Assembly (NCBI GenBank): GCA_017398825.1
Contig: JAFQEV010000033.1
Span: 1-35,416 of the forward strand
Source: Clostridia bacterium
GTDB taxonomy: Bacteria; Bacillota; Clostridia; Christensenellales; Borkfalkiaceae
DNA length: 35,416 nt
Direction of reading: 5' to 3'
This document shows, piece after piece, positions 12,966 through 35,170 of this stretch (position 1 is its first letter; the number at the start of each line of letters is the position of its first letter). The position numbers were made by a program, and so were the translations under genes. A model generated the notes under the pieces. It had not been told where the DNA came from, ran no database searches, and worked only from the letters and a program-made list of their open reading frames with translations.

Positions 12966-12966
12966 A

Positions 12967-14217: not shown

Positions 14218-15253
14218 AAAATTAAATATTGAAATACTCGGTGAGTCTCACGCCCCCGAGATTAAAATGGCGGTTAAAGGCTTTCCGGCGTTTAAGTTTG
14301 ATAGCGATGAATTGCTAAAATTTTTAGCAAGGCGCAAAGCGTCGGCATCGGCTTTCTCAACTCCTAGAAAGGAAGATGATTTACCACTTTTCGAGGGCGT
14401 TAGCGGAAATGAGATAGACGGTGATTTTTCCGTAGTTATAAAAAACAACAACGTAAAAAGTGGAGATTATAACGAGCTTTACGCTAAGCCTCGCCCCTCT
14501 CACGCCGACTACGCGTGGCATTTAAAGGACGGTGCTTTAGATTTTTCCGGCGGTGGCAGATTTTCCGCAAGGCTCACGGCAGTTTATGCTGTTCTCGGCG
14601 GAATTTGCAAGCAGTATTTAGAGAAAAAAGGCATAAAAATAGCCTGCTATCTTCAATCCGTAGGAAAGGTAAACGGGCGCTCGTATAAAGAGGGAGAACC
14701 GACTTATAATGAGGTTTTAAGCGCTACAGAGGCTTTCCCGTCACTTTCAAATCAAGCTGAAATGCTAAAGGAGATTGAAATTGCTCGTTCAAACGGTGAT
14801 AGCGTTGGTGCGGTAGCCGAGGTTGTAGTTTACGGTTTGCCGTCAGGCGTAGGTGATAACTTATTCGAAGGTTTAGAGGGCAAGCTTTCAAGCTTAATAT
14901 TCTCAATCCCAGCAGTTAAGGGCGTTGAGTTTGGCTCGGGCTTTGATATGGCAAGCCAGCTTGGCTCTAACGCAAACGACGAGCTTTATTACGATGGAGA
15001 TATCGTGAAATTGCGTTCCAACAACAACGGCGGAATTAACGGGGGAATATCAAACGGCTTTAACCTCACGATGAGGGTAGCGTTCAAGCCGACCCCGTCT
15101 ATATCGATAGAGCAAAATACTATTGACCTAATATCAAAAGAAAACGTTAAAATCAAAATAAAAGGCAGGCACGATTCGTGCGTTGCCGTAAGGGGAGTTC
15201 CCTGTATAGAAAGTGCAGTTGCAATTGCACTTGTTGACGAAATTGCTAAGTAA
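14198..15253 (+). CDS. aroC: Chorismate synthase (divergent)
   Basis: 351 aa. Makes chorismate from EPSP with reduced FMN. The histidine of GESHA near residue 17, the histidine of RPSHADY and the aspartate of RHDSC match the known catalytic positions. NNNGGINGGISNG (FMN site) is present. Several near-invariant motifs are altered: GESHG to GESHA, RPGHAD to RPSHAD, (S/A)SARET to RFSARLT, and RHDPC to RHDSC. Length is normal and it sits in a complete operon, so it is probably active. Start chosen at GGGGGAGAAATAGATG, inside aroA. Confidence 0.9.
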   Translation: MSKFTGKKLNIEILGESHAPEIKMAVKGFPAFKFDSDELLKFLARRKASASAFSTPRKEDDLPLFEGVSGNEIDGDFSVVIKNNNVKSGDYNELYAKPRPSHADYAWHLKDGALDFSGGGRFSARLTAVYAVLGGICKQYLEKKGIKIACYLQSVGKVNGRSYKEGEPTYNEVLSATEAFPSLSNQAEMLKEIEIARSNGDSVGAVAEVVVYGLPSGVGDNLFEGLEGKLSSLIFSIPAVKGVEFGSGFDMASQLGSNANDELYYDGDIVKLRSNNNGGINGGISNGFNLTMRVAFKPTPSISIEQNTIDLISKENVKIKIKGRHDSCVAVRGVPCIESAVAIALVDEIAK

Positions 15254-15267
15254 TTATAGGTGATAAA

Positions 15268-16410
15268 ATGAAAGATTTATTAGAGATAAGAAACAGTATT
15301 GACAAGATTGACGACCAAATTATCGAACTTTACAAAGAGAGAATGGCTCTTTCAAAAGAGGTTGGAATAATAAAATCTCAAACCGAAAAAGCCGTTCACG
15401 ACGGAAAGAGGGAAAAGGAAATCGTTTACAGGCTTTCTCAAAAATGCCCTGAGGAAATCAGGCTTTACGTAAAAGAACTTTACGACGCTATTTTCTATTC
15501 GAGCAAAGCATATCAAAGCAAATTTACAGACAGCTCCTCTCCCGTAAAGGAAGAGATTGATAAAATCATAGCAAATCCGCTCGTTGATTTTCCCGTTGAC
15601 GGAACTGTTGCATGCCAAGGCGTGTACGGCGCAAACAGCGGAAAAGCTGCAGAAAAGATTTTCCCCATATCCGATATCACCTATTTTAAAACTTTCGAGG
15701 GCGTATTCAACGCAGTAGAAAAAGGTCTTTGCGAGTACGGCGTATTGCCTATTGAAAACAGTACCGCGGGCTCGGTTTCCGAGGTTTACGACCTTATGAG
15801 AAAGTATGATTTCCATATCGTAAAGAGCGTTCGTTTGCAAATCGACCATTGCTTAGCAGTTAAAAACGGTGCGGAGCTCAAGGATATAAAAACCGTTATA
15901 TCTCATCCGCAAGCCCTTTCACAATGCCATGAATACCTTAAAAAATTAGGCGTTAAGGCGGAAAGCGTTGAAAATACCGCCGTTGGTGCAAAAGCCGTTT
16001 CGGAAGGTGACGATAAAACGATTGCCGTTTTATGTTCTAAAGAATGCGCTACTGCATACGGGCTTAAAATCGTTGAACCGAGAGTTCAAGATAGCGAAAA
16101 GAACTATACTCGCTTTATCTGCATAACCAAGAATATGAGAATTTACAAGGGTGCTGACAAGATTAGTATTATGACGAGCTTGGCTCACACCCCTGGCTCG
16201 CTTAACAAAATCGTAAGCCGTTTCTATGCGTTTGGTTTAAACCTTACAAAGATTGAATCTCGCCCGATTGAGGGTAGCGATTTCGAATTTATGTTCTACT
16301 TTGATTTCGAGGGTGATATTTTAGATCCTCAGGTTAGAAACCTCATTGCAGAGCTCGATAACGGCTCGGATAAATTCGTTCTACTTGGAACTTATAAAGA
16401 GAGTTTATGA
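15268..16410 (+). CDS. pheA: Bifunctional chorismate mutase / prephenate dehydratase
   Basis: 380 aa, three domains: an AroH-type chorismate mutase (about 1-90; RNSIDKIDDQIIELYKERM), prephenate dehydratase (about 110-290; GVYGANSGKAA, PIENSTAGSV, and the catalytic TRF in NYTRFICI), and a C-terminal ACT domain (about 300-380; SLAHTPGSLNKIVSRF and the Phe-binding ESRP). It supplies prephenate for both branches and phenylpyruvate for Phe. The ACT domain implies feedback inhibition by Phe. The start follows AGGTGATAAAATG, and the stop overlaps aroEK by ATGA. Confidence 0.96.
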   Translation: MKDLLEIRNSIDKIDDQIIELYKERMALSKEVGIIKSQTEKAVHDGKREKEIVYRLSQKCPEEIRLYVKELYDAIFYSSKAYQSKFTDSSSPVKEEIDKIIANPLVDFPVDGTVACQGVYGANSGKAAEKIFPISDITYFKTFEGVFNAVEKGLCEYGVLPIENSTAGSVSEVYDLMRKYDFHIVKSVRLQIDHCLAVKNGAELKDIKTVISHPQALSQCHEYLKKLGVKAESVENTAVGAKAVSEGDDKTIAVLCSKECATAYGLKIVEPRVQDSEKNYTRFICITKNMRIYKGADKISIMTSLAHTPGSLNKIVSRFYAFGLNLTKIESRPIEGSDFEFMFYFDFEGDILDPQVRNLIAELDNGSDKFVLLGTYKESL

Positions 16411-17645
16411 AATACTGTTTGTTAGGAGAAAAGCTTTCGCATAGCTACTCCAAGGAAATTCACGAATACTTAGGTCTTAACTATTCGCTTAAAGAAGTTT
16501 CTCCGTGTATGATAGGAGATTTTGCGTATTCTAACGAATACTGTGGGTATAACGTTACTATCCCGTATAAAAAAGTGATAATGAATTTTTTAGACGAGAT
16601 AAGTGATGACGCCCGTTCTATAGGCGCAGTTAACACCGTAGTTATAAAAAACGGCAAGCGCTACGGATATAATACCGACGTTTTGGGGCTTAATTACACC
16701 CTTTTAAGAAAAGGTATTTCTTTAAGCGGTAAAACCGTTATGGTGCTTGGTACGGGAGGCGCGTCAAACGCCGTAAGATACGTGTGCGAAAAATCGGGGG
16801 CAAGGGAAATTATTATAGTTGGAAGAACTTCTCCTGTAAACTATCAAAATTGTTACGAAAAAACGGGCGTTCAAGTAATTTTCAACGCAACGCCCGTGGG
16901 AATGTATCCAAACGTTAGCGAAAGCCCGATAGATTTATCAAAGTTTAAAAATCTCGAGGCGGTTATCGACCTTATTTACAATCCTCAAAAAACCGAGCTT
17001 ATAAAGCAGGCGGAGGAGTTAAAAATAGTTAATTCAAACGGTCTTCCTATGCTCGTGGAGCAAGCGCTTTGCGCGGAGGATTTATGGCTTGATAAAACTC
17101 ACGACAATAAGCTTACCGAAGAGGTTATAGCAAAAATTTCTAAGGATAAATTAAATGTTTGCTTGTGGGGAATGCCGTCTTGTGGAAAATCAACGCTCGG
17201 CAAGCTCGTAGCAAAGGAATTAAACCGCGAGTTTTTCGACCTCGATGAAGAAATATATAAGTCAACCGGCAAAACCCCGTCTGAGATAATTAATAGCGAG
17301 GGTGAAAAAGTTTTCCGCGATATTGAAACCAAGGTTTTAAAACAAACCGTTATAAAATCTAGAGCTGTAATATCTCTTGGCGGTGGTGCGGTTATAAAAG
17401 AAGAAAACCGTAGCATCATTAAAAACAACTCGGTGAGCGTTTACGTAAAGAGGGAACTTTGTTCATTAGTAACCGATGGTAGACCGCTTTCGGTTGCAAA
17501 GGGCGTTGAAACGCTGTATAATGAAAGAAAAAGTTTTTACGAAACCGCCGATATAACGGTTGAAAATAACGGTGATATAACTGTTGCAGTAAAGGAGATT
17601 ATAAAGCAATATGAAACTACTTGTTTTGAATGGTCCAAACCTTAA
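16407..17645 (+). CDS. Shikimate dehydrogenase fused to shikimate kinase
   Basis: 412 aa with two enzymes in one chain. Residues 1 to about 245 are an AroE-type shikimate dehydrogenase: LSHSYS, YNVTIPYKK with the catalytic lysine, IGAVNTVV, YNTDVLG and the NADP motif VLGTGGASNAV. Residues about 250-412 are a shikimate kinase: Walker A GMPSCGKST (255-263), DLDEEI, FRDIE, SLGGGAV and a lid arginine in DGRPL. Together they convert 3-dehydroshikimate to shikimate 3-phosphate. The two are usually separate genes (aroE, aroK), so the fusion is uncommon. The dehydrogenase half is a little short but keeps its motifs. The end overlaps aroQ by 35 bases. Confidence 0.93.
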   Translation: MKYCLLGEKLSHSYSKEIHEYLGLNYSLKEVSPCMIGDFAYSNEYCGYNVTIPYKKVIMNFLDEISDDARSIGAVNTVVIKNGKRYGYNTDVLGLNYTLLRKGISLSGKTVMVLGTGGASNAVRYVCEKSGAREIIIVGRTSPVNYQNCYEKTGVQVIFNATPVGMYPNVSESPIDLSKFKNLEAVIDLIYNPQKTELIKQAEELKIVNSNGLPMLVEQALCAEDLWLDKTHDNKLTEEVIAKISKDKLNVCLWGMPSCGKSTLGKLVAKELNREFFDLDEEIYKSTGKTPSEIINSEGEKVFRDIETKVLKQTVIKSRAVISLGGGAVIKEENRSIIKNNSVSVYVKRELCSLVTDGRPLSVAKGVETLYNERKSFYETADITVENNGDITVAVKEIIKQYETTCFEWSKP

Positions 17646-18039
17646 TATGCTTGGTATTCGCGAGCCTGAGCTTTACGGAAAACAAGGCTATAAGGCGCTT
17701 GTTTCCTATATCAAAAAGGTTGCTAAGGAAAATTACGTTAATGTATCGGTTAAGCAATCAAACAGCGAGGGAGCACTTGTAACGTATATTCAAAAAGCAA
17801 GAAATCGTTTTGACGGCATAATAATAAACGCAGGGGCATACACGCACACGAGCGTTGCTATACTCGATGCTTTAAAGGCTGTTGGGCTTTTAACCGTAGA
17901 GGTGCATTTAACTGACATAAATTCTCGTGAAGAATTTAGAAAGTTAAGCTACGTTTCAATGTTTGCCGAAAAGCAAATTGCAGGCAAGGGCTTTGACGGA
18001 TATAAAGAGGCAATCGAATATTTTGCTCAAAGAAGTTAG
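17611..18039 (+). CDS. aroQ: 3-dehydroquinate dehydratase, type II
   Basis: 142 aa, normal length. Dehydrates 3-dehydroquinate to 3-dehydroshikimate. Motifs: LNGPNLNMLGIREPELYG with the catalytic arginine and tyrosine, QSNSEGALVTYIQ, INAGAYTHTSVAI, and VEVHLTDINSREEFR, where the catalytic histidine is kept and the usual SNIHAREEFR is slightly changed. It completes the operon: all seven shikimate steps plus the Phe and Tyr branches up to the keto acids. Ribosome site AAAGGAG lies inside the preceding gene. Confidence 0.95.
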   Translation: MKLLVLNGPNLNMLGIREPELYGKQGYKALVSYIKKVAKENYVNVSVKQSNSEGALVTYIQKARNRFDGIIINAGAYTHTSVAILDALKAVGLLTVEVHLTDINSREEFRKLSYVSMFAEKQIAGKGFDGYKEAIEYFAQRS

Positions 18040-21548: not shown

Positions 21549-22943
21549 ATGGCAGTAAAAATCCCTATGATTATCTATGGCGAGAGAAAAACCGCCCTTC
21601 AAAAAAAAGCTATTGAAGTTTTAACAGAATATCTTCTCGATTACTATTTAGAGTATGCTCCGTGCTATCCTTGTGGAGCGCAAGTAAACACGGAAAATTT
21701 CTACACCTTGTATATAGGAACTAAGCAAAACAACGCATATATCAATACAAACTCAACCGCAGTTTTAACAAAGCCCGAAGAGTATTATATAAAAGCGGAT
21801 AAAGACGGTGCAATTATCGAAGGTTATGACGATGCCGGCGTTTTATACGGTTGCGTTGATTTTTACAATAGATATTTAATAGAGCAAGATTTTATGATAG
21901 GTAACACCTTGGGTAGAGAGGGTGACGTTATGGGCGATTTTGAGCTCCAGTCCGCACCCGTAATCAAAAACCGCGGTCTTTGGACTTGGGGTCACGTTAT
22001 CTACGATTACAAGGGTTATATCGACAATATGGTAAAACTCAAGATGAACACACTTATTATGTGGAACGAATTCGTGCCCTTAAACGCAAAAGAGATTTAC
22101 GAATATGCACATTCCTGCGGTGTTAAACTCGTTTGGGGTTATACTTGGCTTTACAACTTTAATAAACCTATGGACTTATCCACCATCTACGATAAAGTTG
22201 GCGGCATTATCGAAGAGTTTGAACGCGATTATAAAGATATCTCGGCGGACGGTATATATTTCCAAACCTTTACCGAGTACGTTACCGAAGAGGCAAACGG
22301 GGTAGACATTGCACAAACGGCAACCGAATTTGTAAATCACGTTGCAGGAAAATTCTACGAAAAGTATCCTGACCTTGAAATTCAGTTTGGTCTTCACGCA
22401 ACCTCGTGCAAAAACAAGCTTGATATTTTGAAAAACGTAAACCCCAAAATTCAAATCGTTTGGGAAGATTGTGGCGCATTCCCGTTCGCATATTCTCCTA
22501 TGGCGGTTAAAGATTTTGATGAGACTTACGCTTTTGCTGAAAAGATTGCAACTCTCCGTGGAGATAAGGAAAACTTTGGCGTTGTATTAAAGGGCGCAAC
22601 TTGCCTTGACTGGAGGGCGTTCAAGCATCACGACGGACCTTTCAATATCGGTGTAAGCAGTAAAAGGGTTAAGCGCAATAGAGTGGAGAGAAAATCTCAC
22701 GCTTGGCGTTGGGCTCAAACCTACTGGGTATCAAACGGCAAATACGCTCAAAAGATGATAAAAATGCTTGCCGAGAAAACGGGTGGCAACATGTGGATGA
22801 CCGACCTTGTTGAAGACGGTATGTTTGAAGAAATTATCTATCTTCCCGTAGCGATTTTAGGCGAACTTATGTGGAACCCAGATATTGACTTTGATTATCT
22901 ATATAAACTCGTAACGCTCAGGCACAACGTTGAGTTTATATAG
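21549..22943 (+). CDS. Glycoside hydrolase-like protein (GH20/GH67-type N-terminus), function unknown
   Basis: 464 aa. Residues 1 to about 115 resemble the accessory domain of beta-hexosaminidases and alpha-glucuronidases (YYIKADKDGAIIEGYDDAGVLYGCVDFYNRYL). A barrel-like region follows, from VIKNRGLWTWGHVIYDYKGYIDNMVKLKMNTLIMWNEF. I do not see the catalytic Asp-Glu pair of GH20, and the protein is shorter than GH67 enzymes. No signal peptide, so it is cytoplasmic. Acidic candidates include the Glu in QTFTEYV and the Glu-Asp in VWEDCGAF. Preceded by AAGGAG and candidate AraC sites. It may process oligosaccharides taken into the cell. Confidence 0.65.
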   Translation: MAVKIPMIIYGERKTALQKKAIEVLTEYLLDYYLEYAPCYPCGAQVNTENFYTLYIGTKQNNAYINTNSTAVLTKPEEYYIKADKDGAIIEGYDDAGVLYGCVDFYNRYLIEQDFMIGNTLGREGDVMGDFELQSAPVIKNRGLWTWGHVIYDYKGYIDNMVKLKMNTLIMWNEFVPLNAKEIYEYAHSCGVKLVWGYTWLYNFNKPMDLSTIYDKVGGIIEEFERDYKDISADGIYFQTFTEYVTEEANGVDIAQTATEFVNHVAGKFYEKYPDLEIQFGLHATSCKNKLDILKNVNPKIQIVWEDCGAFPFAYSPMAVKDFDETYAFAEKIATLRGDKENFGVVLKGATCLDWRAFKHHDGPFNIGVSSKRVKRNRVERKSHAWRWAQTYWVSNGKYAQKMIKMLAEKTGGNMWMTDLVEDGMFEEIIYLPVAILGELMWNPDIDFDYLYKLVTLRHNVEFI

Positions 22944-23327: not shown

Positions 23328-24821
23328 ATGAAGAAAAAATTGCTTGGAATTTTTACGTCTATAATGCTTACTGCCTTGTGTGCTTTTGGCATGATAGGGT
23401 GTAATAACGATGACGGTAATTCAAATGGTAATGACGTATTTATAATAGAAGGAACAACTGTTACTGGGCTTACTGAGTATGGTAAATCGCTTAGTGAAAT
23501 TGTAGTTCCTGAAACGGTTACCGCAATAGGTGATAGTGCTTTCGTTGGAGCGAGCGCAACCAAAATAGTATTGAGCAGTTCTTTAAACGTTATCGGAGAT
23601 GACGTTTTTGATGGGCTTAGCCTTGAATACAACGTTAAAGACGGAGTTAAATATTTAGGTAATTCAGATAACGATTATTTTTATCTTGCAAGTGTTGTTT
23701 CAACTGAAATCGAGAGTGTTACTATAGATGAAAATTGTAAAATAATCGGTCACGCAGCATTTTCTCTTTGCAAAAATCTTGAAAGTGTAACTATTCCGAA
23801 TAGCGTTGAAACTATAGGAAACTCTGCATTTTTCAAAAACGAAAAATTAACAAGTGCAAACATCGGTACGGGCGTAACTAAAATAGGCAATCAAGTATTT
23901 TTCGAGTGTGAAAAGTTGTCTACTGTGAACGTGCCTGCTGGCGTTACTGAAATCGGGTACTATGCGTTTAAAAATTGTGCTATTGAAAGCATTACCTTGC
24001 CTGACGGTTTAACTGAAATTTCCGATTCGTTATTCTACGGCTGTAGTAAACTTAATTCAGTTAATATCCCTGCAAACGTTACCTCTATCGGTAGCGGTGC
24101 GTTCTATGAATGTAGTGCTCTCACGGAATTATCACTTCCTGCAAACGTAACTAAGATAGGTAATTCAGCATTTGCAGGTTGCGCTTTGCTTAGTTCCGTT
24201 AACGTGCCTGCTGGAGTAACCGTAATTGATAATGCAACTTTCTACGGATGTTCTTCTCTTGTATCTCTTGAACTTCCTAATCAATTAACAACTATTAAAG
24301 ACTATGCTTTTAGCAGTTGTTCAAAGTTGAGCGGTTTAGAAATTCCAGATACCGTTAACAAAATGGGAGCAAACGTATTCAACGAGTGTGCTGCGCTTTC
24401 ATTTACCATTTCGAACGGAGTAAAATACATAGGAAATGATGCTAATAATCATTTATGGGCTATAGAAGTTATAGCGGATAGCAAGAAAGGAGCAACCTCT
24501 ATTACTCTTAATGAAAACTGCAAAGGCATTGCATCTTCTACTATTATAAATTGTGAAAAGTTAACTTCGATAGTTATCCCAAGTTCAATAAGCTGGATAT
24601 GTGATAGAAACCTTGGCGGTTGCGCTAAGCTTGAAAAAATCTACTTTTGCGGAACGGAAACAGCTTGGGAAACCATAGGATATGAAACTGAAATCACAGT
24701 ATATTATTTTAGCGAACTTGAGCCCGCTCTCAACGCTGAACAAACTGCTTATAATGGAGATTTTTGGCATTACGGCGAAAACAAAGAAATTATTGAGTGG
24801 ATATACGTTGTTGAAGAATAA
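23328..24821 (+). CDS. BspA-like leucine-rich repeat (LRR_5) lipoprotein
   Basis: 497 aa. A lipoprotein signal peptide with lipobox GMIGC (Cys about 25) is followed by a short Asn/Asp/Gly linker. Then there are about ten repeats of 23 residues (about 43-345) of the type LxSVxIPxxVTxIGxxAFxxCxxL, and a final partial set with a C-terminal cap. Such proteins sit on the cell surface and are implicated in adhesion or binding of host or polymer ligands. Not a bundle of enzymes: no catalytic domain is visible. Expression is probably controlled by the divergent XRE repressor through three operators. The region is AT-richer than its neighbours. Confidence 0.92.
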   Translation: MKKKLLGIFTSIMLTALCAFGMIGCNNDDGNSNGNDVFIIEGTTVTGLTEYGKSLSEIVVPETVTAIGDSAFVGASATKIVLSSSLNVIGDDVFDGLSLEYNVKDGVKYLGNSDNDYFYLASVVSTEIESVTIDENCKIIGHAAFSLCKNLESVTIPNSVETIGNSAFFKNEKLTSANIGTGVTKIGNQVFFECEKLSTVNVPAGVTEIGYYAFKNCAIESITLPDGLTEISDSLFYGCSKLNSVNIPANVTSIGSGAFYECSALTELSLPANVTKIGNSAFAGCALLSSVNVPAGVTVIDNATFYGCSSLVSLELPNQLTTIKDYAFSSCSKLSGLEIPDTVNKMGANVFNECAALSFTISNGVKYIGNDANNHLWAIEVIADSKKGATSITLNENCKGIASSTIINCEKLTSIVIPSSISWICDRNLGGCAKLEKIYFCGTETAWETIGYETEITVYYFSELEPALNAEQTAYNGDFWHYGENKEIIEWIYVVEE

Positions 24822-24885: not shown

Positions 24886-25380
24886 TTATTCGCCGATAAC
24901 CATGATTTGAACGGTTCTCTTTCTACCGCGAGTCTTGTCCCAGTCGATAAAGTAGATAAAGCCAAATTCGCCAAGGTCGATAACGCCGTCGTCAATAACA
25001 GCGGTAACGCTTCTGCCGATAATAGAGGAGATAAGGTGAGCCTCGGTGTTGTGGCAACCTCTTGCGTCCTCTCCGTGCTCTTCTGCAAATTTGAGTGCCT
25101 TGGGGCCGGGGTGAAGGTATATACCCTCTCTCGTGTAGCTGGGGCAAATCTTTTCCATAGAGTCAACTAAATCTTGCTGTAAAGTTTCTCTGCCCGTCAT
25201 AGACATATCGAACGCGCACTCCTGAGTAATAACCGAACAAGTAGTGTGATGCGAGTAAACTACTACGATACCGTTTTGAATACCTGAATTTTTAACCGTT
25301 TCCTTAACCGCTGCGGTTACGTTGTGGAAGGTTACTTCCTTGTGGTCTGATTCAACTTGAATTTTATTTTTGAAAATCAT
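24886..25380 (-). CDS. YjbQ / UPF0047 family protein
   Basis: 164 aa. Family motifs: VVVYSHHTTCSVITQE, EDARGCHNTEAHLISSIIGRSV and FGFIYFIDWDKTRGRKRTVQIMVIGE. The fold is a small beta barrel with a histidine-rich site; E. coli YjbQ has weak thiamine-phosphate synthase activity, though the true role is uncertain. Most members have about 130-140 residues; this one carries an insert around PSYTREGIYLHPGPKALKFAEE. It is 13 bp downstream of the TIM-like gene with its own AAGGAG, so both probably belong to the same carbohydrate unit. Confidence 0.85.
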   Translation of the reverse strand: MIFKNKIQVESDHKEVTFHNVTAAVKETVKNSGIQNGIVVVYSHHTTCSVITQECAFDMSMTGRETLQQDLVDSMEKICPSYTREGIYLHPGPKALKFAEEHGEDARGCHNTEAHLISSIIGRSVTAVIDDGVIDLGEFGFIYFIDWDKTRGRKRTVQIMVIGE

Positions 25381-25393
25381 ATCAATTCTCCTT

Positions 25394-26092
25394 TTACTTT
25401 TTAAGGTCGTCTGCCGCTTGGCGAGTAGCCTTTATCATTTCTTCCATAACGGCAAACGGGTCTTTAGCGTTAACGATACCGGACGCTGCGCCCGCACCTT
25501 CTGAACCTGCCATAATAAAGTCGTAAACTTGTTTTCCGTTAGTAATACCTGCAGCTTGTTCAACGTAAATATCGGGGTCGATTGCCTTGATTGCGTCAAT
25601 GGTCTCCTTTACGAAACTCATATCCGAAACCTTACCGTCACCACCGCCGATAAGCTCGCTCGGTTCAGGATTAATAATGTCCGGTTTTAAGTGTGCAAGT
25701 GCTTGAGCCTCGGCAGTAGTGTCTGCACAAGCAAAAACTATAAAGTCAAGCTCTCTTGCTCTTTTTATGGTATCCTTGATTTGAGGAAGGCTCATGGGCT
25801 TTTCACAATGGTTAACAACAACGCCGTGTGCGCCTGCAGCTTTTAAACTCTCAGGAAGAACGCACGCCATTCCGCGACCAGGATAAATAGTGTCCATATA
25901 AGGTGCGATGATAATTAAGTTCTTAGTGTTTTCGGCAACTCTTCTAATATCTGCATAGGGGGTGGTGAAGAGTACGTCAACGTCGTACTTTTCAGCAAGC
26001 TCGTCAGCGCGTTTAGCAAGAGCCAACACTTCGTCCCCGTAAATGTAGTTTTTAGTGCCTATTTCAAAAAAGGGTGTTCTTATTTTTTTCAT
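25394..26092 (-). CDS. Triosephosphate isomerase-like (TIM family) protein
   Basis: 232 aa from the ATG at 26092. A longer frame reaches 26140, but its -10 box (TATCAT, 26133-26128) would lie inside that extension, so the transcript starts downstream of it; AAGGAG also lies just before 26092. Motifs match archaeal-type TIM: EIGTKNYIYG (substrate lysine), VVNHCEKP (catalytic histidine; usually NHSE) and PEPSELIGGG (catalytic glutamate), then AAGITNGKQV and GAGAASGIV for phosphate binding. Changes around the lysine and histidine, and the catabolic neighbours, suggest an isomerase for another small sugar phosphate rather than the glycolytic enzyme. Confidence 0.82.
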   Translation of the reverse strand: MKKIRTPFFEIGTKNYIYGDEVLALAKRADELAEKYDVDVLFTTPYADIRRVAENTKNLIIIAPYMDTIYPGRGMACVLPESLKAAGAHGVVVNHCEKPMSLPQIKDTIKRARELDFIVFACADTTAEAQALAHLKPDIINPEPSELIGGGDGKVSDMSFVKETIDAIKAIDPDIYVEQAAGITNGKQVYDFIMAGSEGAGAASGIVNAKDPFAVMEEMIKATRQAADDLKK

Positions 26093-26127
26093 TTTTGATA
26101 GTAACTCCTTGTTTAACGTTTGATTTA

Positions 26128-26222
26128 ATGATACTTTCATATCAAAAAATTGTCAACCTTTTATCGTAATTATAATAAATTTGAGCGTTTTGCTTGACAA
26201 TTTGAGCGTTTTATATTAAACT
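26128..26222. promoter_or_regulatory. Divergent promoter region with DeoR-type operators
   Basis: Minus strand: TTGACA (26156-26151), 17 bp, TATCAT (26133-26128), for the TIM-like/YjbQ unit. Plus strand: TTGACA (26194-26199), with a weak TAAACT (26217-26222) at 17 bp. TTTGAGCGTTTT is present twice, at 26180-26191 and 26201-26212, 21 bp apart and on either side of the plus-strand -35. A reverse copy occurs at 27036-27046. Confidence 0.65.
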
Positions 26223-26250: not shown

Positions 26251-27036
26251 ATGAAAAAAACATTAGCTGAAGAAAACGTAATATTAAAAGAGTTACAGCT
26301 TAACGGAACGGTTACTTTAAAAGAGGCTATGGATAAGCTTTCGGTATCCGAGGCAACAGCGAGGCGTTTGTTTTCTCGCCTTGAGGAAAAGGGCTTAGGC
26401 GTTCGTTCGCACGGTAGGATAACTCTACCTGCAAGCTCGTACAACTTTTATCGGTACGACGTTTCTAAGGAGTTATACGTAAAAGAAAAAAAGGCGATAG
26501 CAAACTTTGCCGTGTCCTTGGTAAAGGACGGGGACGTGTTGTTTTTAGATTCCGGCACAACCGTTTGCTTATTCAGTATGGCTCTTGCCGACGCGCTCAG
26601 GCAAAAAACCCTTAATGATATTAAGGTTTTCACAAATTCCTACATGATAATTAACATTTTAAATGATTTAGCCGTTGTTAACCTCATCGGAGGAACGTAT
26701 CGACCTAACCGTAAAGACTTTTGCGGTTATATGACTGAAAAGAGTATAAAGGACTGTCATTTTGACAAATGCTTTTTGGGAACTGACGGCTACACCCAAG
26801 AGTTTGGCTTTACGACCACCGAGTTTGAAAGTGCAAAGATTTGCGAAACGGCGATAGCCTCGTCGGATAGTTCTATAATCATAACGGACTTTCACAAATT
26901 TGGTTCAAGCGCTTTAGTAAGCTTTTCAAACGGTTTGGATATCACTGCCGTGATTACAGACGATAAAATTCCCACAGCTATCGCAAGGGAAATGCAGGGG
27001 CGTGGAATTAACGTAAAAACTGTTAAAATTGATTGA
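26251..27036 (+). CDS. DeoR-family transcriptional regulator
   Basis: 261 aa. An N-terminal winged HTH (VTLKEAMDKLSVSEATARRLFSRLEEKGLGVRSHGRITLP, residues 18-60) and a C-terminal sugar-phosphate-sensing domain (FLDSGTTVCLFSMAL, NSYMIINIL, LIGGTYRPNRKDFCG, FLGTDGYTQEFGFTT, ITDFHKFG). The family usually represses sugar catabolic operons until a phosphorylated intermediate binds. It sits between the TIM-like/YjbQ unit and the amidohydrolase-kinase operon, with matching sites near both promoters. Ribosome site AGGAGC before the ATG. Confidence 0.9.
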   Translation: MKKTLAEENVILKELQLNGTVTLKEAMDKLSVSEATARRLFSRLEEKGLGVRSHGRITLPASSYNFYRYDVSKELYVKEKKAIANFAVSLVKDGDVLFLDSGTTVCLFSMALADALRQKTLNDIKVFTNSYMIINILNDLAVVNLIGGTYRPNRKDFCGYMTEKSIKDCHFDKCFLGTDGYTQEFGFTTTEFESAKICETAIASSDSSIIITDFHKFGSSALVSFSNGLDITAVITDDKIPTAIAREMQGRGINVKTVKID

Positions 27037-27092
27037 AACGCTCAAAATTTTATTAAAACTTATTGACAATGCAAATTAAGGTATGATAAAAT
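27036..27092 (+). promoter_or_regulatory. Promoter and operator of the amidohydrolase-kinase operon
   Basis: AAACGCTCAAA (27036-27046), the reverse complement of the operator motif before the DeoR gene, lies 16 bp upstream of TTGACA (27063-27068), which pairs with TAAAAT (27087-27092) at 18 bp. Confidence 0.6.
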
Positions 27093-27124: not shown

Positions 27125-28147
27125 ATGTTTGGATTTAAACTTACTGACTACGACATAAAGGTTTATCAAGAAGAGCTCAACGAATTTTTACCTAAAAACA
27201 TAGTTGACGCGCACACTCACGTTTATTTAGAGAAATTTAAAAAGCCGAAAAAGCCCGGCGCTCGTATTTACTGGCCAAGCCGTGTTGCGGAAGATTGTTC
27301 GATGGAAGACCTTATTCAAACCTATAAAGATTTATTTCCCAACCAAAACGTAGTTCCTCTTATTTTCGGCTCGCCGTCTGCTAATTTAGAACCCAGCAAC
27401 GCGTATATTAGCGAAAAATCTAAAGAGTACAATTATCCTGCGCTTTACTTATCTCATTACGATATGAGCGGGGAGTTTTTAGAGGAAGAGGTTATCAAAG
27501 GCGGTTTCCAAGGTTTAAAACCCTATCTTAACAACTGCAAAGCAGGTGTTGTAGGTGCAAACGCTGGTATTTTTGACTTTCTTCCCCATCACCACTTAAA
27601 AGTTGCCGATAAGCACGGCTGGAAGGTAGTACTTCATATTTCCAAACCCGATAGGCTTAAAGATCCCGATAATATTCGCGACCTTATGGAAATTGAGCAA
27701 AAGTACCCGAACGTTAAGCTTGTTGTAGCGCACATCGGTAGAGCTTATGCGCCTGAAGATATCGGCAATGCTTTCGATACGTTAAAGCACACTAAGAATA
27801 TGATGTTTGATTTCTGTGCCAACACTTTACCTCTCGCTACCGAAAAGTGTATTGAGGCGGTTGGCACTAAGAGGGTAATGTTCGGTACGGACATGCCGAT
27901 TGCAAAGATGCGCATGTATAGAATTAGTGAGGACGGTTATTATATTAACGTCGTTCCGAGAGGGCTTTATGGTGACGTTTCCGATGCGGAACATATGAGA
28001 GAGAGTGACGAGGCTACGATTACTAACTTTACCTACGAGATTGTTCGCGGATTTAAAAAGTGTGCTGAAAACTTAACTCTTTCTAAAAAAGACGTAGAAG
28101 ATATAATGTGTAACAACGCTGCAAACTTATATAACATTAAATTTTAA
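27125..28147 (+). CDS. Amidohydrolase family 2 metal-dependent hydrolase
   Basis: 340 aa. A TIM-barrel enzyme with the HxH metal motif in DAHTHVY (H30, H32), a histidine in VVLHIS, another in VVAHIGRAY, and the late catalytic aspartate in MFGTDMP. Amidohydrolase_2 proteins include decarboxylases, lactonases and C-C hydrolases acting on acids and lactones. First gene of the operon with a kinase and NagB/NagA-like proteins, so a lactone or carboxylated sugar is a plausible substrate (inference). Strong AAGGAG site. Also contains an unusual insert of about 40 residues near 270-310. Confidence 0.82.
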   Translation: MFGFKLTDYDIKVYQEELNEFLPKNIVDAHTHVYLEKFKKPKKPGARIYWPSRVAEDCSMEDLIQTYKDLFPNQNVVPLIFGSPSANLEPSNAYISEKSKEYNYPALYLSHYDMSGEFLEEEVIKGGFQGLKPYLNNCKAGVVGANAGIFDFLPHHHLKVADKHGWKVVLHISKPDRLKDPDNIRDLMEIEQKYPNVKLVVAHIGRAYAPEDIGNAFDTLKHTKNMMFDFCANTLPLATEKCIEAVGTKRVMFGTDMPIAKMRMYRISEDGYYINVVPRGLYGDVSDAEHMRESDEATITNFTYEIVRGFKKCAENLTLSKKDVEDIMCNNAANLYNIKF

Positions 28148-28157
28148 TTAGGAATTT

Positions 28158-29561
28158 ATGAATTATTATCTTGGCATTGATTTAGGTACTACTGGTACTA
28201 AATCCATACTCTTTGACGAATCAGGAAAGGTTATCGGCAAAGGCTATAAGGGCTACGGTTTAATTACCCCGTGTGAAAATTTCTTCGAGCAAAACGCTGA
28301 GGACTGGTATGACGCCGTTGTATGCTCTGTAAAAGAGGCGATAGCTGGCTTTAAGGGTGAGGTGAAGGCGATGTCCTTCTCCGCACAGGGCGGTAGCTTT
28401 TTGTTTGTTGACGTTGATAAAAACGGTCAGCCTATTCCTCTTACCAACGCGATAACTTGGATGGATAAGCGCGCCGAAAAAGAGGCTGAGCTTTTAAAGG
28501 AAAAGTATTATCAATTAACTGGCAACCGCATGGGCGCAAGCAATATGGTTGCAAAGTACGCTTGGGTAAAGAATAACATGCCCGATGCGTTTAGCAAGGC
28601 AAAATACGTTCTTTCAACCTCCGATTATATCTATATGAGATTGACGGGTGAGGTCGTTATCGATTACACGAGCGCCGCAATGATGGGAGTTTACGATACC
28701 GATTTAAACGATTACGATGAAAGGCTTGTAACTCTTGCAGGGCTCAAGATAGAAAACTTTCCACGCATCGTTCAAGCAGGTGAGTTTATAGGCTTTGCAA
28801 ACGCTCAGTTTTTACAAGAAACCGGCTTAAAGGGCGATATTTCGGTATACGCTGGTCTTCACGATCAGTTTGCTGCCAGCCTTGGCGCTAACTATTTTTC
28901 GGAAAATGACGTTATTGTTTCCACCGGCACTACTTGGGTAGTATTTGCAAGGAATAACGACAGGATAAAGGGCAACTTTGCATGCCGTCGTCACCCGGCG
29001 GGAGATTACGGTTACTTTAACTCGGCGGTAAGCTCTGGCACGGTGCTTGAATGGGAGAAAAATCTTTTTGGTCTTCCGTATAAGGAGATGGACGAGCTTG
29101 CGAGTGAAAAGCCGATTGATGAAAACTTATTAGTTTATCCCTTCGTTTCCGGCAACGGCGGATATCGCGGTCAAAACGTTTTGAGTTTTGCTATAAAGAA
29201 CGCTCATTACAGGCACGATAAGGGCGATATTTTCAAAGCTACTATGGAAGGCGTAGCGTTTGAGGTTAAGCAAATAATCAACATCTACAAGCGTAGCGGT
29301 TTTGAACTCGGCAACGTGATAGTTACAGGCGGTGCAACGAGGAGCTCGGTGTGGATGCAAATACTGTCTGACGTTTTAGGTGAAAAGTTATATCTTTCCG
29401 AGCAGGCTGACGGTTGCTGTTTTGGAGCTTATTCCGTGGCAATCAAGGGCGAGAAAGGAAAGTTTGTAAAATTTGAATTTAACGGTAAAACCGTTGATTA
29501 TATTGAAGAAAACGCTACTAAATACGTGGCAAAATTCGACAATTACAATAAAAACATGTAA
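28158..29561 (+). CDS. FGGY-family carbohydrate kinase
   Basis: 467 aa. ATP-dependent sugar kinase: GIDLGTTGTKSILFD (N-terminal phosphate loop), NAITWMDKRAEKE, AGLHDQFAASLGA with the likely catalytic aspartate, STGTTWVVF, and the C-terminal NVIVTGGATRSSVWMQILSDVLGEKL. Relatives phosphorylate xylulose, ribulose, fuculose, erythritol or autoinducer-2; the exact sugar cannot be read here. With NagA/NagB-like neighbours one would expect a ROK kinase, so an FGGY member is unusual. L-fucose isomerase 4 kb away makes fuculose one candidate. Confidence 0.9.
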   Translation: MNYYLGIDLGTTGTKSILFDESGKVIGKGYKGYGLITPCENFFEQNAEDWYDAVVCSVKEAIAGFKGEVKAMSFSAQGGSFLFVDVDKNGQPIPLTNAITWMDKRAEKEAELLKEKYYQLTGNRMGASNMVAKYAWVKNNMPDAFSKAKYVLSTSDYIYMRLTGEVVIDYTSAAMMGVYDTDLNDYDERLVTLAGLKIENFPRIVQAGEFIGFANAQFLQETGLKGDISVYAGLHDQFAASLGANYFSENDVIVSTGTTWVVFARNNDRIKGNFACRRHPAGDYGYFNSAVSSGTVLEWEKNLFGLPYKEMDELASEKPIDENLLVYPFVSGNGGYRGQNVLSFAIKNAHYRHDKGDIFKATMEGVAFEVKQIINIYKRSGFELGNVIVTGGATRSSVWMQILSDVLGEKLYLSEQADGCCFGAYSVAIKGEKGKFVKFEFNGKTVDYIEENATKYVAKFDNYNKNM

Positions 29562-29579
29562 ATAGAGGAGATAATACAT

Positions 29580-30569
29580 ATGGGACTTTACGATGAATTT
29601 AAGTTTAAACCGGCATCTTGGCTACCTCACAGCGAATTACCGCTTGAAGAACTCGAAAGAGTAAGAAACGTTAAGCGTGAGGATATGGAGTACACTAACG
29701 AAAACGGCTATCAAGTAAAGGTAGTTATGAACCCCACTTTACTTATGGTTGCTGATATGTTCTATCGCTTGGTAAAAAGTGATAAGGAAAACAAGCCTTT
29801 CACTATGATTTGCCCCAACCAATGGCCTGATGCTTACGGTGCTGTTGCTGAACTTGTTAACAGCAACAATATCAATTTAAGAAACGTTCACGCGTTCGCT
29901 ATGGACGAGTGGGCTGACCAAGACGGCAACGTTGCACCCCTTACTTACGGTGCGGGTTTAGGCGCGTCCTTTATGGAGCATTTCTACTATAAAATAAGAG
30001 AAGATTTACGTCCTGACGTTTCTCACTGGCACACTTTCAATAACGATAACAAGGCACGTGGCGTATATTCTCAAATGATACAAGACGTTGGTGGGGCTGA
30101 CGTTGTTTATTCGGCTACCGGCTGGCCCGGTCACACCGCGTTTATCGACCCGAGAACTAAAGAATTCGCTGCGGATAGCATAGAGGAATTCATTAAGATT
30201 AAATCGGGCTTAGTAACGCAAAACCCATTAACCATTTGCGAAAACTCCCTCTTTGGACCTATGGGTGCATCGGGTGACGTATGGGCAGTTCCTCCCATGG
30301 CTGCGACTATCGGACCTTACGATATCGTTAACGCAAGGGAAAGTTTTGAAGTTCACAACATTTTAAACAACCCGACGGGTGATACTTGGCAACGTATGGC
30401 ATCACGCCTCCAACTTTACGGTCCTATCTCGATGGAATGCCCGGCAAGTATTATGAGATTAAAACCGGGTATTTGTTACGTTTCAGAGGCTATTGCCGCT
30501 CCGTTTAGAAGTTGGAGCTTTGACGATATCCGTCACGACAACAAAGAGAATAAAGTAAAGGTTTTCTAA
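29580..30569 (+). CDS. NagB-like sugar-phosphate isomerase/deaminase (divergent)
   Basis: 329 aa, longer than the usual 240-270. Resembles glucosamine-6-phosphate deaminase: FAMDEWAD corresponds to the FNMDEY motif with its catalytic aspartate, and ATGWPGHTAFIDP to GxGxDGHIAFNEP. In that second motif the histidine is kept, but the preceding aspartate is Pro and the Glu is Asp, so deaminase chemistry may be lost or altered. The C-terminal part, with FGPMGASGDVWAVPPMAATIGP, is extra. Strong GAGGAG site; one base separates it from the next gene. Confidence 0.75.
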   Translation: MGLYDEFKFKPASWLPHSELPLEELERVRNVKREDMEYTNENGYQVKVVMNPTLLMVADMFYRLVKSDKENKPFTMICPNQWPDAYGAVAELVNSNNINLRNVHAFAMDEWADQDGNVAPLTYGAGLGASFMEHFYYKIREDLRPDVSHWHTFNNDNKARGVYSQMIQDVGGADVVYSATGWPGHTAFIDPRTKEFAADSIEEFIKIKSGLVTQNPLTICENSLFGPMGASGDVWAVPPMAATIGPYDIVNARESFEVHNILNNPTGDTWQRMASRLQLYGPISMECPASIMRLKPGICYVSEAIAAPFRSWSFDDIRHDNKENKVKVF

Positions 30570-30570
30570 T

Positions 30571-31725
30571 ATGAAAGTTATAATTAACACTAACGTTATC
30601 CTACCAGACGGTATACTTTTTGACGGTATAGTTGCGTTTGAAAGGGATAAAATTGTTGCTGTTGCAAAACAATCGGAATACGAAATCCCAGCTACCGCCG
30701 AGATTATCGATGCAAACGGGCTTTATACTGCTCCCGGCCTTATCGATATTCACAACCACGGTAGCGAGGAAAACTTTTTCGTCGATAATCCAGAGGCGTG
30801 CACAGAGCACTTTTTAAAGCACGGTCAAACTACTGTTCTTCCCACCTTCTATCAAACGATGAGCTTAGAGGATATGATTGACGGGGCTAACAAGCTCAAA
30901 GAATTTTCCAAGTCCAAGATAGGCAAGGTGATAAAGGGCTTGTATATGGAAGGCCCGTTTATGCGTGCATCTGGTAGCAACAGCCAGCTCTTTAAATGGT
31001 CTGGCGAGATATCTCGCGAGCAATATACCGCTTTAGTTGACGGTATAGGTGATTTCGTTCGCGTTTGGGCTATTGACCCAGATAGGTCGAATATCGTTGA
31101 GATTATGGACTACGTTATGGCTAAAAAGCCGAGCGCCATATTTACTCTTGGGCACTCGGGCGCTACGAGTGAGCAATGCGAAAAGGTTTACAATTCAAAC
31201 CTCAAAATTCAAACTCACCACGGCGATTCAGGCAACGCTCCGAGAATTAACCAGGCTAAGTTTGGTGCGGGGGTTGACGAGTATGCGCTTTGCAACCAAG
31301 ATATGTTCATCGAACTTATTTGTGATGAATCTGGTATCCATTTAGCGCCTTATTCAATTCGCGCCGCAATTAAGGCAAAGGGAATTGAAAAGGTTATACT
31401 TATTACCGATAGCTTTCCAAAGACGGGCGATTATAAAAACGACGAGTCTAAGGGAATTAAATTCGGCGCTGACCTTAATTACGATGCAAACGGACTTCTT
31501 GCGGGTTCACACTTAACGCTTGATAACGCCGTTAGAAACGTTATGAGCTATACGGGTTACGGTCTTTCCCACGCCGTTCGCTTTGCCTCGTTAAATCCTG
31601 CAAAAGCTTTGGGAATAGATAAGCTTTACGGTTCAGTTCAAGTAGGCAAGATTGCAGACCTTTTATTAGTTGACGATAGGTTTAGTGTTAAGTCAGTTTA
31701 TCTTGAGGGCGAAAAAGTATTTTAA
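30571..31725 (+). CDS. NagA-like amidohydrolase (N-acetylglucosamine-6-phosphate deacetylase family)
   Basis: 384 aa. Metal and substrate motifs: APGLIDIHNHG (H61, H63), YMEGPF with the metal-binding Glu, LGHSGAT, THHGDSGNAPR (NagA usually has TH-FNAM here), LITDS with the catalytic Asp, and AGSHLTLDNAV. Deacetylates N-acetylated sugar phosphates in typical members. The altered THHGDSGN segment lies where NagA contacts its substrate, so another N-acyl or related sugar is likely. It closes the operon and a strong terminator follows. No transporter is encoded beside it. Confidence 0.85.
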   Translation: MKVIINTNVILPDGILFDGIVAFERDKIVAVAKQSEYEIPATAEIIDANGLYTAPGLIDIHNHGSEENFFVDNPEACTEHFLKHGQTTVLPTFYQTMSLEDMIDGANKLKEFSKSKIGKVIKGLYMEGPFMRASGSNSQLFKWSGEISREQYTALVDGIGDFVRVWAIDPDRSNIVEIMDYVMAKKPSAIFTLGHSGATSEQCEKVYNSNLKIQTHHGDSGNAPRINQAKFGAGVDEYALCNQDMFIELICDESGIHLAPYSIRAAIKAKGIEKVILITDSFPKTGDYKNDESKGIKFGADLNYDANGLLAGSHLTLDNAVRNVMSYTGYGLSHAVRFASLNPAKALGIDKLYGSVQVGKIADLLLVDDRFSVKSVYLEGEKVF

Positions 31726-31731
31726 CAACGT

Positions 31732-31763
31732 AAAACAGCGTGATAAATCACGCTGTTTTTATT
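31732..31763 (+). terminator. Terminator of the amidohydrolase-kinase operon
   Basis: 12-bp stem AAAACAGCGTGA (31732-31743) and TCACGCTGTTTT (31748-31759), loop TAAA, with T run. Confidence 0.88.
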
Positions 31764-33337: not shown

Positions 33338-35170
33338 TTATTTCTTGTAAAGAGGACCGTAAGTCTGGCAAGCTCTGTAGTCTTGACCTTCTTTATCCAT
33401 ACCAAATGCGTTCCAGCAAGCAGGGCGATAAACGTCTTTCTCAGGTACGTTGTGCATGCATACGGGAATTCTAAGCATTGAGCAAAGAGTGATTAAGTCA
33501 GCACCGATATGACCGTAAGAGATTGCACCGTGGTTAGCACCCCAGTTTTGCATTACTTCGTAGGCGGTTCTGAATGGGCTACCTTCCTTGCCGTCACAAC
33601 GAGGAGCGAACCAAGTGCAAGGCCAAGTGGGGTTAGTTCTCTTCATTAACTTGTCGTTAACGTCTTTGGGAAGGTTTACAGTCCAACCCTCAGCAATTTG
33701 AAGAACGGGGCCTAAGCCTTTAACCAAGTTAAGTCTAATCATGGTAACGGGCATTTCCGCATAAGTGTCAAAGTGGCTAGAGAAACCACCGCCACGGAAG
33801 TTATCAAAACCAGCCTCGCACCATACGGTAGCGTCGGTCATCTTCTTGATATCTTCGTCGGTTACTTCCCACCATTTTTTCATAACGGCGTTGCCGTTTT
33901 CATCGGTACAAACACCGCTAGCATCAAGACAAGCAGCACCGGAATTTAAAAGGTGAATAATACCGTCTGATTCTTTTGCTTTGCCTTCAAGTTTGTAGCC
34001 GGTAACTCTTTCAGTTGCCTCGCCTGACCAGTAAGTTCTAACGTCAGCAAAGATTTGAGCGCGGTGAGTTAAAAGGCGCATCATAAGCATACCCATGCCG
34101 TTTAATACGTCGTTTTCGGTTGCTAAGGTGAACGGTTCTCTTGCACCCTCGTAGTCGAAAGTAGAACTTAAAAGTGCCTCGGGGTAGTCGCAGTTGGGCC
34201 AGTGGTCAGTCCATTGACGTTGACCTTGGAAACCACCAACGATTGCATTATGACCAGCTCTTTCTTCAATGAAAGCATCGGGAAGATTTTGATTGCCTGC
34301 CATTAAGTCTTTGATAATGCAGTACATTTTAACGGTGAATTCCCATTGCTTATCCTTTTCTTCACGTGTAAATTTAATTTTGTGGTCTTTACCTAAGAAC
34401 GGAACGGTATCAGGGTTATCGTCCCAACCTTCTTTACAATGTTCTTTCGTCCAAGCCAAAGCCTTTTGATATTCTTCTTCGTTATATATGCCTTCTTCCA
34501 TACGGCGAAGAATTTCAACTTCGTCAACAGATTCAACGCGCATACCGAAATAGCTTTCCATTACGTCTTGATCGATAATAGAGCCTGCAATACCCATACA
34601 TTGCGAACCGATTTGGAGGTAAGATTTTCCGCGCATAGTAGCAACTGCAACTGCAGCGCGACCAAAGCGAAGGAGTTTTTCCTTAACGTCCTCAGGGATT
34701 TCATTTACTTGGTCTAAGTCTTGAACTTCGTGGCCGTAAATACCGAAAGCAGGTAAGCCCTTTTGAGCGTGACCGGCAAGAACTGCAGCAAGGTAAACTG
34801 CACCCGGTCTTTCAGTACCGTTAAAGCCCCAAACCGCCTTGATAGTGTTGGGGTCCATGTCCATAGTTTCCGAACCGTAGCACCAGCACGAAGTTACGGA
34901 TAATGTAATGTCAACCCCTTCTTTTTTAAACTTTTCAGCACACGCAGCAGCCTCTGCAACGCGACCGATACAGGTATCTGCTAAAACAACTTTAACAGGT
35001 TCGCCGTTTGAATAAAAAAGATTGTCCTCAAACAATTTTTTAGCGGCGTTAGCCATTGCCCAAACGGTAGGTTCGAGAGATTCACGGAGCATCATCGGTC
35101 CACGACGACCGTCAATACAAGGTCTAATACCGATTACGGGGTATCCGCCAAGGTATCTTGATTTTGCCAT
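33338..35170 (-). CDS. fucI: L-fucose isomerase
   Basis: 610 aa. Interconverts L-fucose and L-fuculose, and often D-arabinose and D-ribulose, with Mn2+. Good match along its length to FucI: GIRPCIDGRRGPMMLRESLE near the start, WGFNGTERPGAVYLAA, SYLQIGSQCMGIAGS, GFQGQRQWTDHWPN, FTLATENDVLNGMGMLMM with metal-ligand acids, and the late HGAISYGHIGADLITL with a ligand histidine. The start follows AAGGAGAATATATTATG. Fuculose aldolase and permease are not in the window; the FGGY kinase at 28 kb could act next, but lies in another operon. It is divergent from a gene cut by the window edge. Confidence 0.94.
   Translation of the reverse strand: MAKSRYLGGYPVIGIRPCIDGRRGPMMLRESLEPTVWAMANAAKKLFEDNLFYSNGEPVKVVLADTCIGRVAEAAACAEKFKKEGVDITLSVTSCWCYGSETMDMDPNTIKAVWGFNGTERPGAVYLAAVLAGHAQKGLPAFGIYGHEVQDLDQVNEIPEDVKEKLLRFGRAAVAVATMRGKSYLQIGSQCMGIAGSIIDQDVMESYFGMRVESVDEVEILRRMEEGIYNEEEYQKALAWTKEHCKEGWDDNPDTVPFLGKDHKIKFTREEKDKQWEFTVKMYCIIKDLMAGNQNLPDAFIEERAGHNAIVGGFQGQRQWTDHWPNCDYPEALLSSTFDYEGAREPFTLATENDVLNGMGMLMMRLLTHRAQIFADVRTYWSGEATERVTGYKLEGKAKESDGIIHLLNSGAACLDASGVCTDENGNAVMKKWWEVTDEDIKKMTDATVWCEAGFDNFRGGGFSSHFDTYAEMPVTMIRLNLVKGLGPVLQIAEGWTVNLPKDVNDKLMKRTNPTWPCTWFAPRCDGKEGSPFRTAYEVMQNWGANHGAISYGHIGADLITLCSMLRIPVCMHNVPEKDVYRPACWNAFGMDKEGQDYRACQTYGPLYKK

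Follow-up and report, generated by a model that had tools for sequence, protein, structure and literature searches.

A DeoR-linked gene set of gut Clostridia that may act on a rare N-acetyl amino sugar before its phosphorylation

Layout of the gene set

We analysed a 35,416-nucleotide stretch of DNA from a Clostridia bacterium (family Borkfalkiaceae; contig JAFQEV010000033.1), which we call the window. Within a 1.43-Mb genome that is 92% complete, the window corresponds to contig C30, and a protein search places it nearest to metagenome-assembled genomes of gut Clostridia. Our subject is a set of seven genes around a DeoR-family regulator. The set belongs to a real, widespread, and uncharacterised catabolic module, parts of which occur in many gut Clostridia. 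We consider it plausible, if somewhat short of probable, that these genes catabolize, under the control of DeoR, a rare N-acetyl amino sugar and process it ahead of phosphorylation.

In order across the window, the set comprises two genes on the minus strand, for a YjbQ protein and a protein similar to triosephosphate isomerase (TIM), and then five genes on the plus strand:

24886-25380, minus strand: YjbQ/UPF0047 protein, YjbQ1 subfamily (PF01894, 87.5 bits; TIGR00149, 72.5 bits, cut-off 67.75)
25394-26140, minus strand: TIM-like isomerase, archaeal-type (PRK04302, 162.5 bits, above cut-off)
26251-27036, plus strand: DeoR-family regulator, AgaR/SrlR/GlpR-like (PF00455, 131 bits; PF08220, 41 bits)
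27125-28147, plus strand: metal-dependent hydrolase-fold enzyme, Amidohydro_2 (PF04909, 62 bits)
28158-29561, plus strand: FGGY carbohydrate kinase (PF00370, 176 bits; PF02782; TIGR01312, 248 bits)
29580-30569, plus strand: NagB-fold enzyme, proposed to deaminate an amino sugar that carries no phosphate (fold match; NCBIfam nagB, 33 bits, cut-off 237)
30571-31725, plus strand: NagA-like deacetylase (TIGR00221, 175 bits, cut-off 226)
31732-31759, plus strand: terminator-like hairpin 3' of the NagA-like gene (terminator-like matches in the region are no more frequent than in shuffled sequences)

The last four genes form a tight operon (27125-31725) with intergenic gaps of 10, 18, and 1 bp. The TIM-like and YjbQ genes are separated by 13 bp, and DeoR and Amidohydro_2 by 88 bp. 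There is no transporter gene within the seven-gene set. An earlier note, made from the sequence alone, had described this arrangement (a four-gene operon, DeoR upstream, TIM-like and YjbQ genes divergent, no transporter), and all of the named genes are present at those positions; another gut Clostridium has the same set. The same note proposed an uncharacterised sugar pathway under DeoR control and singled out the use of an FGGY kinase, instead of a ROK kinase or a phosphotransferase system (PTS), as odd. Our results agree on both points. In the open-licence literature, we found no description of an equivalent gene set or of a route for non-phosphorylated amino sugars, and nothing matching under YjbQ/UPF0047 function, free glucosamine deaminase, FGGY with TIM and erythrulose, or N-acetylfucosamine catabolism.

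The NagB-like and NagA-like proteins

The NagB-like protein has no match in Pfam. Its AlphaFold model, with a predicted local distance difference test (pLDDT) score of 89.7, is closest to deaminases: it matches 2bkv with Z = 27.2 (root-mean-square deviation 2.0 over 231 aligned residues) and 1dea with Z = 26.2. 6-Phosphogluconolactonases match the model at Z of about 22.

In NagB, the TGGTP loop, R172, and K208 are ligands of the phosphate, and D72, D141, H143, and E148 are the catalysts. We aligned the NagB-like protein and its relatives to E. coli NagB, whose sequence is identical to the 1cd5/1dea chain. The TGGTP loop becomes NQWP, with two residues fewer, and R172 becomes leucine (leucine in 30 of 36 relatives and arginine in none). 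In this alignment, K208 has no clear equivalent. The equivalents of D72 and E73 are kept in all 36 relatives, and that of H143 in 34. Because the loop and R172 are lost while D72, E73, and H143 are kept, we infer that the NagB-like protein can still open the ring and transfer protons but acts on a substrate that carries no 6-phosphate. We rejected simple catabolism of N-acetylglucosamine (GlcNAc) for the NagB-like step, given the lost phosphate site of this protein and the presence of a canonical NagB, which is encoded separately on contig C58.

In the NagA-like protein, H61, H63, E127, H195, H216, H257, and D280 are invariant across 22 sequences, and the equivalents of the metal-binding and catalytic residues of NagA (E131, H195, H216, and D273) are all kept. 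Among the phosphate-site residues of NagA, N219 is replaced by aspartate in 17 of the 22 sequences and H251 is kept. Next to the NagB-like gene, a NagA-like gene is found in 17 loci, and an M20 peptidase takes its place in 7 loci.

A conventional order of steps would have the FGGY kinase phosphorylate an N-acetyl amino sugar, after which the NagA-like enzyme would deacetylate the phosphate and the NagB-like enzyme would deaminate it, with TIM and YjbQ acting later. We judge this unlikely. R172 and the TGGTP loop are replaced across the NagB-like family, M20-type proteins are candidate deacylases in NagA's place in some loci, and we know of no FGGY kinases that phosphorylate N-acetylhexosamines. 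On the other hand, the homology to NagA and NagB and the order of the genes do fit the conventional order, and so does precedent: the described routes for GlcNAc and N-acetylgalactosamine (GalNAc) in gut bacteria all proceed via 6-phosphates, with one pathway per monosaccharide (PMC5583593). The earlier note had also placed the kinase first, followed by deacylation and isomerisation, which is at odds with the loss of the phosphate site across the 36 NagB-like relatives.

Tandem NagB-like paralogues, with 28-74% identity, occur in two other loci (L016:7938-10969 and L032:1-4024) and on contig C17 of this genome (L088:7827-9739). This suggests several substrate-specific versions or hetero-oligomers.

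Conservation and gene neighbourhoods

All seven genes are found in identical order in two other loci. In one of these (L009), the NagB-like protein is 97% identical and YjbQ is 98% identical. In the other (L014, the other gut Clostridium mentioned above), the proteins are 61-93% identical, including 75% for NagB-like and 87% for YjbQ.

More broadly, we examined 71 loci with relatives of the NagB-like gene, or about 1.02 Mb of neighbourhood. A TIM-like gene is present in 11 of these loci, while just ~0.1 would be expected (a rough estimate, from ~60 copies in 391 genomes of the class), so the linkage of the two genes is not due to chance. The order of the genes varies. For example, L021 has NagB-NagA-TIM-YjbQ-AraA-like-Amidohydro_2-FGGY, L031 has NagB-NagA-TIM-YjbQ-Amidohydro_2-FGGY-SIS, L034 has NagB-GNAT-NagA-FGGY-TIM-YjbQ-Amidohydro_2, and L054 has Amidohydro_2-FGGY-TIM-YjbQ-NagB.

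We also selected neighbourhoods of the TIM-like gene independently of NagB. The TIM-like protein is present in 11 of 297 genomes of the order and in 48 of 391 genomes of the class. Its neighbours include YjbQ (often two copies, from two subfamilies), SIS, FGGY, Amidohydro_2, and DeoR, as well as AraA-like and SftI-like isomerases, transaldolase/fructose-6-phosphate aldolase (FSA), and Rpe. Within seven genes of TIM (61 loci), YjbQ is found in 55 loci, FGGY in 38, and SIS in 33, and in 46 loci TIM and YjbQ are adjacent on one strand. YjbQ is thus firmly tied, by genome context, to sugar-phosphate isomerisation.

Among loci with both TIM and FGGY, 19 have only an AraA- or SftI-like isomerase as the entry enzyme, 9 have only a NagB-like enzyme, 2 have both, and 8 have neither. 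There are two modules: NagB/NagA, and TIM/YjbQ/(SIS)/FGGY, for which the usual entry enzyme is instead an AraA- or SftI-like isomerase. The TIM-like proteins of NagB-type and AraA-type loci are 81% identical to each other (80% and 84% within the two types), and the FGGY kinases of the two types are just 29% identical. Because TIM is equally conserved across both types, entry by NagB and entry by an aldose isomerase probably converge on one ketose, which would give TIM the same ketose phosphate.

The earlier note had suggested a comparison of neighbourhoods to find out which genes stay together and which transporter accompanies them. The seven genes do stay together in L009 and L014, but the set is not indivisible, as the two modules also occur separately. 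No single diagnostic transporter emerged among the relatives: Rbs-type, oligopeptide-type, SBP_bac_1-type, or MFS transporters were seen, without a fixed partner.

The largely alternative use of NagB-like and AraA/SftI-like enzymes as entries to one trunk raises another possibility, which is that the NagB-like protein is itself an aldose-ketose isomerase (or a lactonase) that replaces the AraA/SftI-like enzyme, with the NagA-like protein deacylating a neutral or modified sugar. The altered catalytic triad (D141 to P and E148 to D) would be consistent with this, and 6-phosphogluconolactonases share the fold. But the nearest fold is that of the deaminase (Z of 26-27, versus about 22 for the lactonase), and the NagB-like gene is linked to the N-deacylase families NagA and M20. 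We think this explanation is rather unlikely.

Two other kinds of genes lie near NagB-like genes. A GNAT acetyltransferase is nearby in seven loci (L047, L034, L039, L050, L051, L052, and L078), and directly adjacent in five. Glycosidases beside NagB-like genes include GH95 and a GH42 domain (both in L012) and GH38 (L027), and these do not point to a single sugar.

The TIM-like, YjbQ, and FGGY proteins

When aligned to 1hg3, 2h6r, and 1w0m, the TIM-like protein has the catalytic residues K30, H111, and E159, which are kept in 62, 63, and 63 of 63 relatives. The asparagine that precedes the catalytic lysine of TIM is replaced by Gly28 (glycine in 54 of the 63 relatives and asparagine in 3). A role in glycolysis was considered and ruled out, as the genome has a canonical TpiA (contig C59, 326 bits) and the TIM-like protein is in so few genomes of the order. 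TIM chemistry shifts a carbonyl that is adjacent to the phosphate-bearing carbon, so we infer that the substrate is a ketose 1-phosphate. The earlier note had also suggested a sugar phosphate as the substrate of the TIM-like enzyme, and we agree on this point.

YjbQ1 and YjbQ2, the two subfamilies that occur near TIM, diverge from ordinary YjbQ (84-97 bits, versus mostly 120-150), and H44, T45, T46, H89, E103, and H114 are among their most conserved positions. The YjbQ family as a whole is present in 10 of 14 reference genomes.

The FGGY kinase scores below every equivalog cut-off in NCBIfam. Its best match is to xylulokinase (TIGR01312), with 248 of the 380 bits needed, and the nearest solved structure is 5vm1.

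The Amidohydro_2 protein

The model of the Amidohydro_2 protein (pLDDT 92.6) is most similar to a COG3618-type amidohydrolase (Z = 22.2), and 2-pyrone-4,6-dicarboxylate lactonase, decarboxylases, and hydratases are within about 3-4 Z units. The HxH motif, His171, His203, and Asp256 are invariant in 15 relatives. Since the gene is found in NagB-type and AraA-type loci alike, its product probably acts in the portion of the pathway that both types have in common.

The COG3618 group includes known sugar lactonases, and the best fold would thus be in line with the route that the earlier note had in mind, in which Amidohydro_2 opens a lactone or an acylated sugar, FGGY phosphorylates the resulting acid, and deacylation and isomerisation follow. 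We consider this very unlikely. Decarboxylases and hydratases fit nearly as well, there is no recurring sugar dehydrogenase in NagB-type loci that would make the lactone, and the downstream chemistry of TIM and SIS requires a ketose phosphate rather than an acid.

Related genes on other contigs

A run of genes on contig C46 (L225:6479-9256) encodes SIS, a second, divergent YjbQ (84% identity with the YjbQ2 type of the pathway), transaldolase/FSA, and Rpe. The SIS protein (C46:21841-22434) is 76% identical to the SIS of the pathway, and the Rpe and the transaldolase/FSA are the sole such matches that were detected in the genome. The earlier note had drawn its pathway from genes in the window; part of the proposed pathway (SIS, the second YjbQ, transaldolase/FSA, and Rpe) would lie on this other contig. 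There is also a second pair of FGGY and TIM genes, on contig C40.

The presence of SIS and transaldolase in C46 and in the relatives would also suit a tetrulose trunk, as in the catabolism of erythritol or L-erythrulose, where TIM-like enzymes (EryH and LerI) carry out tetrulose-phosphate chemistry. FGGY would form L-erythrulose 1-phosphate, the TIM-like enzyme would convert it to D-erythrulose 4-phosphate, and SIS would make erythrose 4-phosphate for transaldolase. This seems unlikely to us: it requires a four-carbon sugar, at odds with the action of the NagA and NagB families on hexosamines, and no homologue of RpiB, EryB, or EryC is among the annotated recurring neighbours. The erythritol and L-erythrulose systems (EryA-H-I and LerK-LerI) do resemble ours in having an FGGY kinase and a TIM-like isomerase near a ketose phosphate, followed by another isomerase. 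Our systems differ in that the TIM is archaeal-type, SIS stands in for RpiB, YjbQ is nearly always nearby, and entry is by AraA/SftI or NagB/NagA.

Contig C58 has an AraC-linked cluster (L091:6485-9962, minus strand) that encodes a distant NagB-like protein (in which R172 is also lost), PfkB-like and class II aldolase-like proteins, and a protein that resembles PIG-L deacetylases (as read from its N-terminus). This cluster is a candidate for a second route for unphosphorylated amino sugars. Deacylation, a NagB-like step, and a kinase form a recurring pattern, since M20 replaces NagA in some loci and the C58 cluster combines PIG-L-like, NagB-like, and PfkB-like proteins.

Proposed pathway

In the pathway that we tentatively favour, the free N-acetyl amino sugar would be deacetylated by the NagA-like enzyme. 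The NagB-like enzyme would then convert the free amino sugar, by deamination and isomerisation, into a ketose with release of ammonia, and FGGY would phosphorylate the ketose, most likely at C1. Going by TIM chemistry, the TIM-like enzyme would shift the carbonyl of the ketose 1-phosphate to a position farther from the phosphate. The product would reach the pentose-phosphate pathway or glycolysis through YjbQ1 together with the C46-encoded YjbQ2, SIS, Rpe, and transaldolase/FSA. In the relatives, a neutral aldose would enter the same trunk via the AraA- or SftI-like isomerase. A candidate substrate is a 6-deoxy amino sugar similar to N-acetylfucosamine (FucNAc) or N-acetylquinovosamine (QuiNAc). 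Because such a sugar has no 6-hydroxyl to phosphorylate, this would explain why deacetylation and deamination precede phosphorylation.

A series of carbonyl migrations by TIM, YjbQ, and SIS, leading to a ketose that transaldolase/FSA and Rpe could use, is chemically coherent. We are doubtful, though, that the whole scheme is correct, with the acetyl and amino groups removed before phosphorylation and the TIM-like enzyme, two YjbQ proteins, and SIS moving the carbonyl stepwise until an ordinary ketose n-phosphate has formed from the ketose 1-phosphate.

Several observations weigh against the pathway as we have drawn it. First, D141 is replaced by proline and E148 by aspartate in most of the 36 NagB-like relatives, and with such a triad the enzyme may isomerise without deaminating. 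Second, R227 of NagA aligns to glycine or alanine, but most relatives have an arginine 3 positions away, so the apparent loss depends on the alignment. Third, 60 of the 71 NagB-like loci are without TIM, so the two modules may in some cases not be part of a single pathway. Fourth, SIS is not beside the genes in the window, and the C46 operon may serve only the ordinary pentose-phosphate pathway. Finally, phosphorylation at C1 is assumed from the chemistry of TIM, and the enzyme activities as a whole are predicted from gene content and comparison.

Our gene set resembles the NagA/NagB pathway for GlcNAc in its adjacent NagA-like deacetylase and NagB-fold deaminase-like enzyme (NagB and NagA are adjacent in 17 loci). 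Unlike in that pathway, the NagB-like protein lacks the 6-phosphate site, both proteins are below their NCBIfam cut-offs, FGGY takes the place of NagK or PTS, and TIM-like and YjbQ proteins are added. The pathways for L-fucose and L-rhamnose (FucI-FucK-FucA and RhaA-B-D) also have an isomerase and then an FGGY kinase that acts on the ketose, with DeoR regulation in some cases, but our recurring neighbours include TIM, YjbQ, and SIS instead of a class II aldolase of the FucA or RhaD type. The sulfo-TAL pathway for sulfoquinovose has SftI and transaldolase, and some relatives of our gene set have an SftI-like isomerase and transaldolase as well; here, the SftI-like match is just 55 of 700 bits, and FGGY, TIM-like, SIS, and YjbQ proteins are additional. 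As for YjbQ/UPF0047, which is annotated as a secondary thiamine-phosphate synthase, our protein belongs to the same family (above the TIGR00149 cut-off), but here two divergent subfamilies are tied to TIM-like genes.

If the proposed pathway is correct, then gut Clostridia would have a widespread route that starts from the free amino sugar and inverts the textbook order, which would amount to a new catabolic logic. A large family of NagB-like proteins, which general annotation would call glucosamine-6-phosphate enzymes, would be explained as well. For YjbQ, the gene set provides a concrete and testable context, and if carbonyl migration is true, this would be the first physiological enzymatic role for YjbQ (UPF0047).

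Regulation

The DeoR protein has both the HTH_DeoR and the DeoRC domains. A 10-mer, TTTGAGCGTT, occurs three times around its gene, with two copies in the gap between TIM and DeoR and one inverted copy in the gap between DeoR and Amidohydro_2:

26180-26189, plus strand: putative DeoR operator, copy 1 (TTTGAGCGTT)
26201-26210, plus strand: putative DeoR operator, copy 2 (overlaps a promoter-like site for DeoR, 26194-26222)
27037-27046, minus strand: putative DeoR operator, copy 3 (upstream of a promoter-like site, 27063-27092)

The core TTGAGCG is found at the matching intergenic places in L009 and L014. It is reasonable to consider the motif a putative DeoR operator that would link both divergent transcripts. 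Across the genome, the 10-mer TTGAGCGTTT has 14 matches, versus 6 for the reversed control. As only the three sites in the window stand out, we dropped the idea of using the motif to define a genome-wide regulon.

Neighbouring genes

Downstream of the set, a full-length L-fucose isomerase (FucI; 33338-35170, minus strand) scores 980 bits, well above the cut-offs for FucI. It was left out of the operon, as it is on the opposite strand and behind RsmE. In L010, the isomerase is also near the NagB/NagA end.

On the other side, the gene at 21549-22943, which adjoins an AraC gene, encodes a 464-amino-acid protein without a Pfam match. The protein has a weak likeness to the N-terminal domains of N-acetylglucosaminidase and alpha-galacturonidase models, and it is possible that it is an intracellular glycosidase of the system. 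In L009, the gene also lies just upstream of YjbQ. Between this gene and YjbQ, the window has an open reading frame (23328-24821) for a protein similar to BspA-like leucine-rich-repeat lipoproteins, which is not there in L009.

Farther away, at 10094-18039, is a shikimate (aromatic amino acid) operon. Going by our reading of the translations, it encodes 3-deoxy-D-arabino-heptulosonate 7-phosphate (DAHP) synthase, prephenate dehydrogenase, AroB, AroA, AroC, chorismate mutase/prephenate dehydratase, an AroE-AroK fusion, and AroQ.

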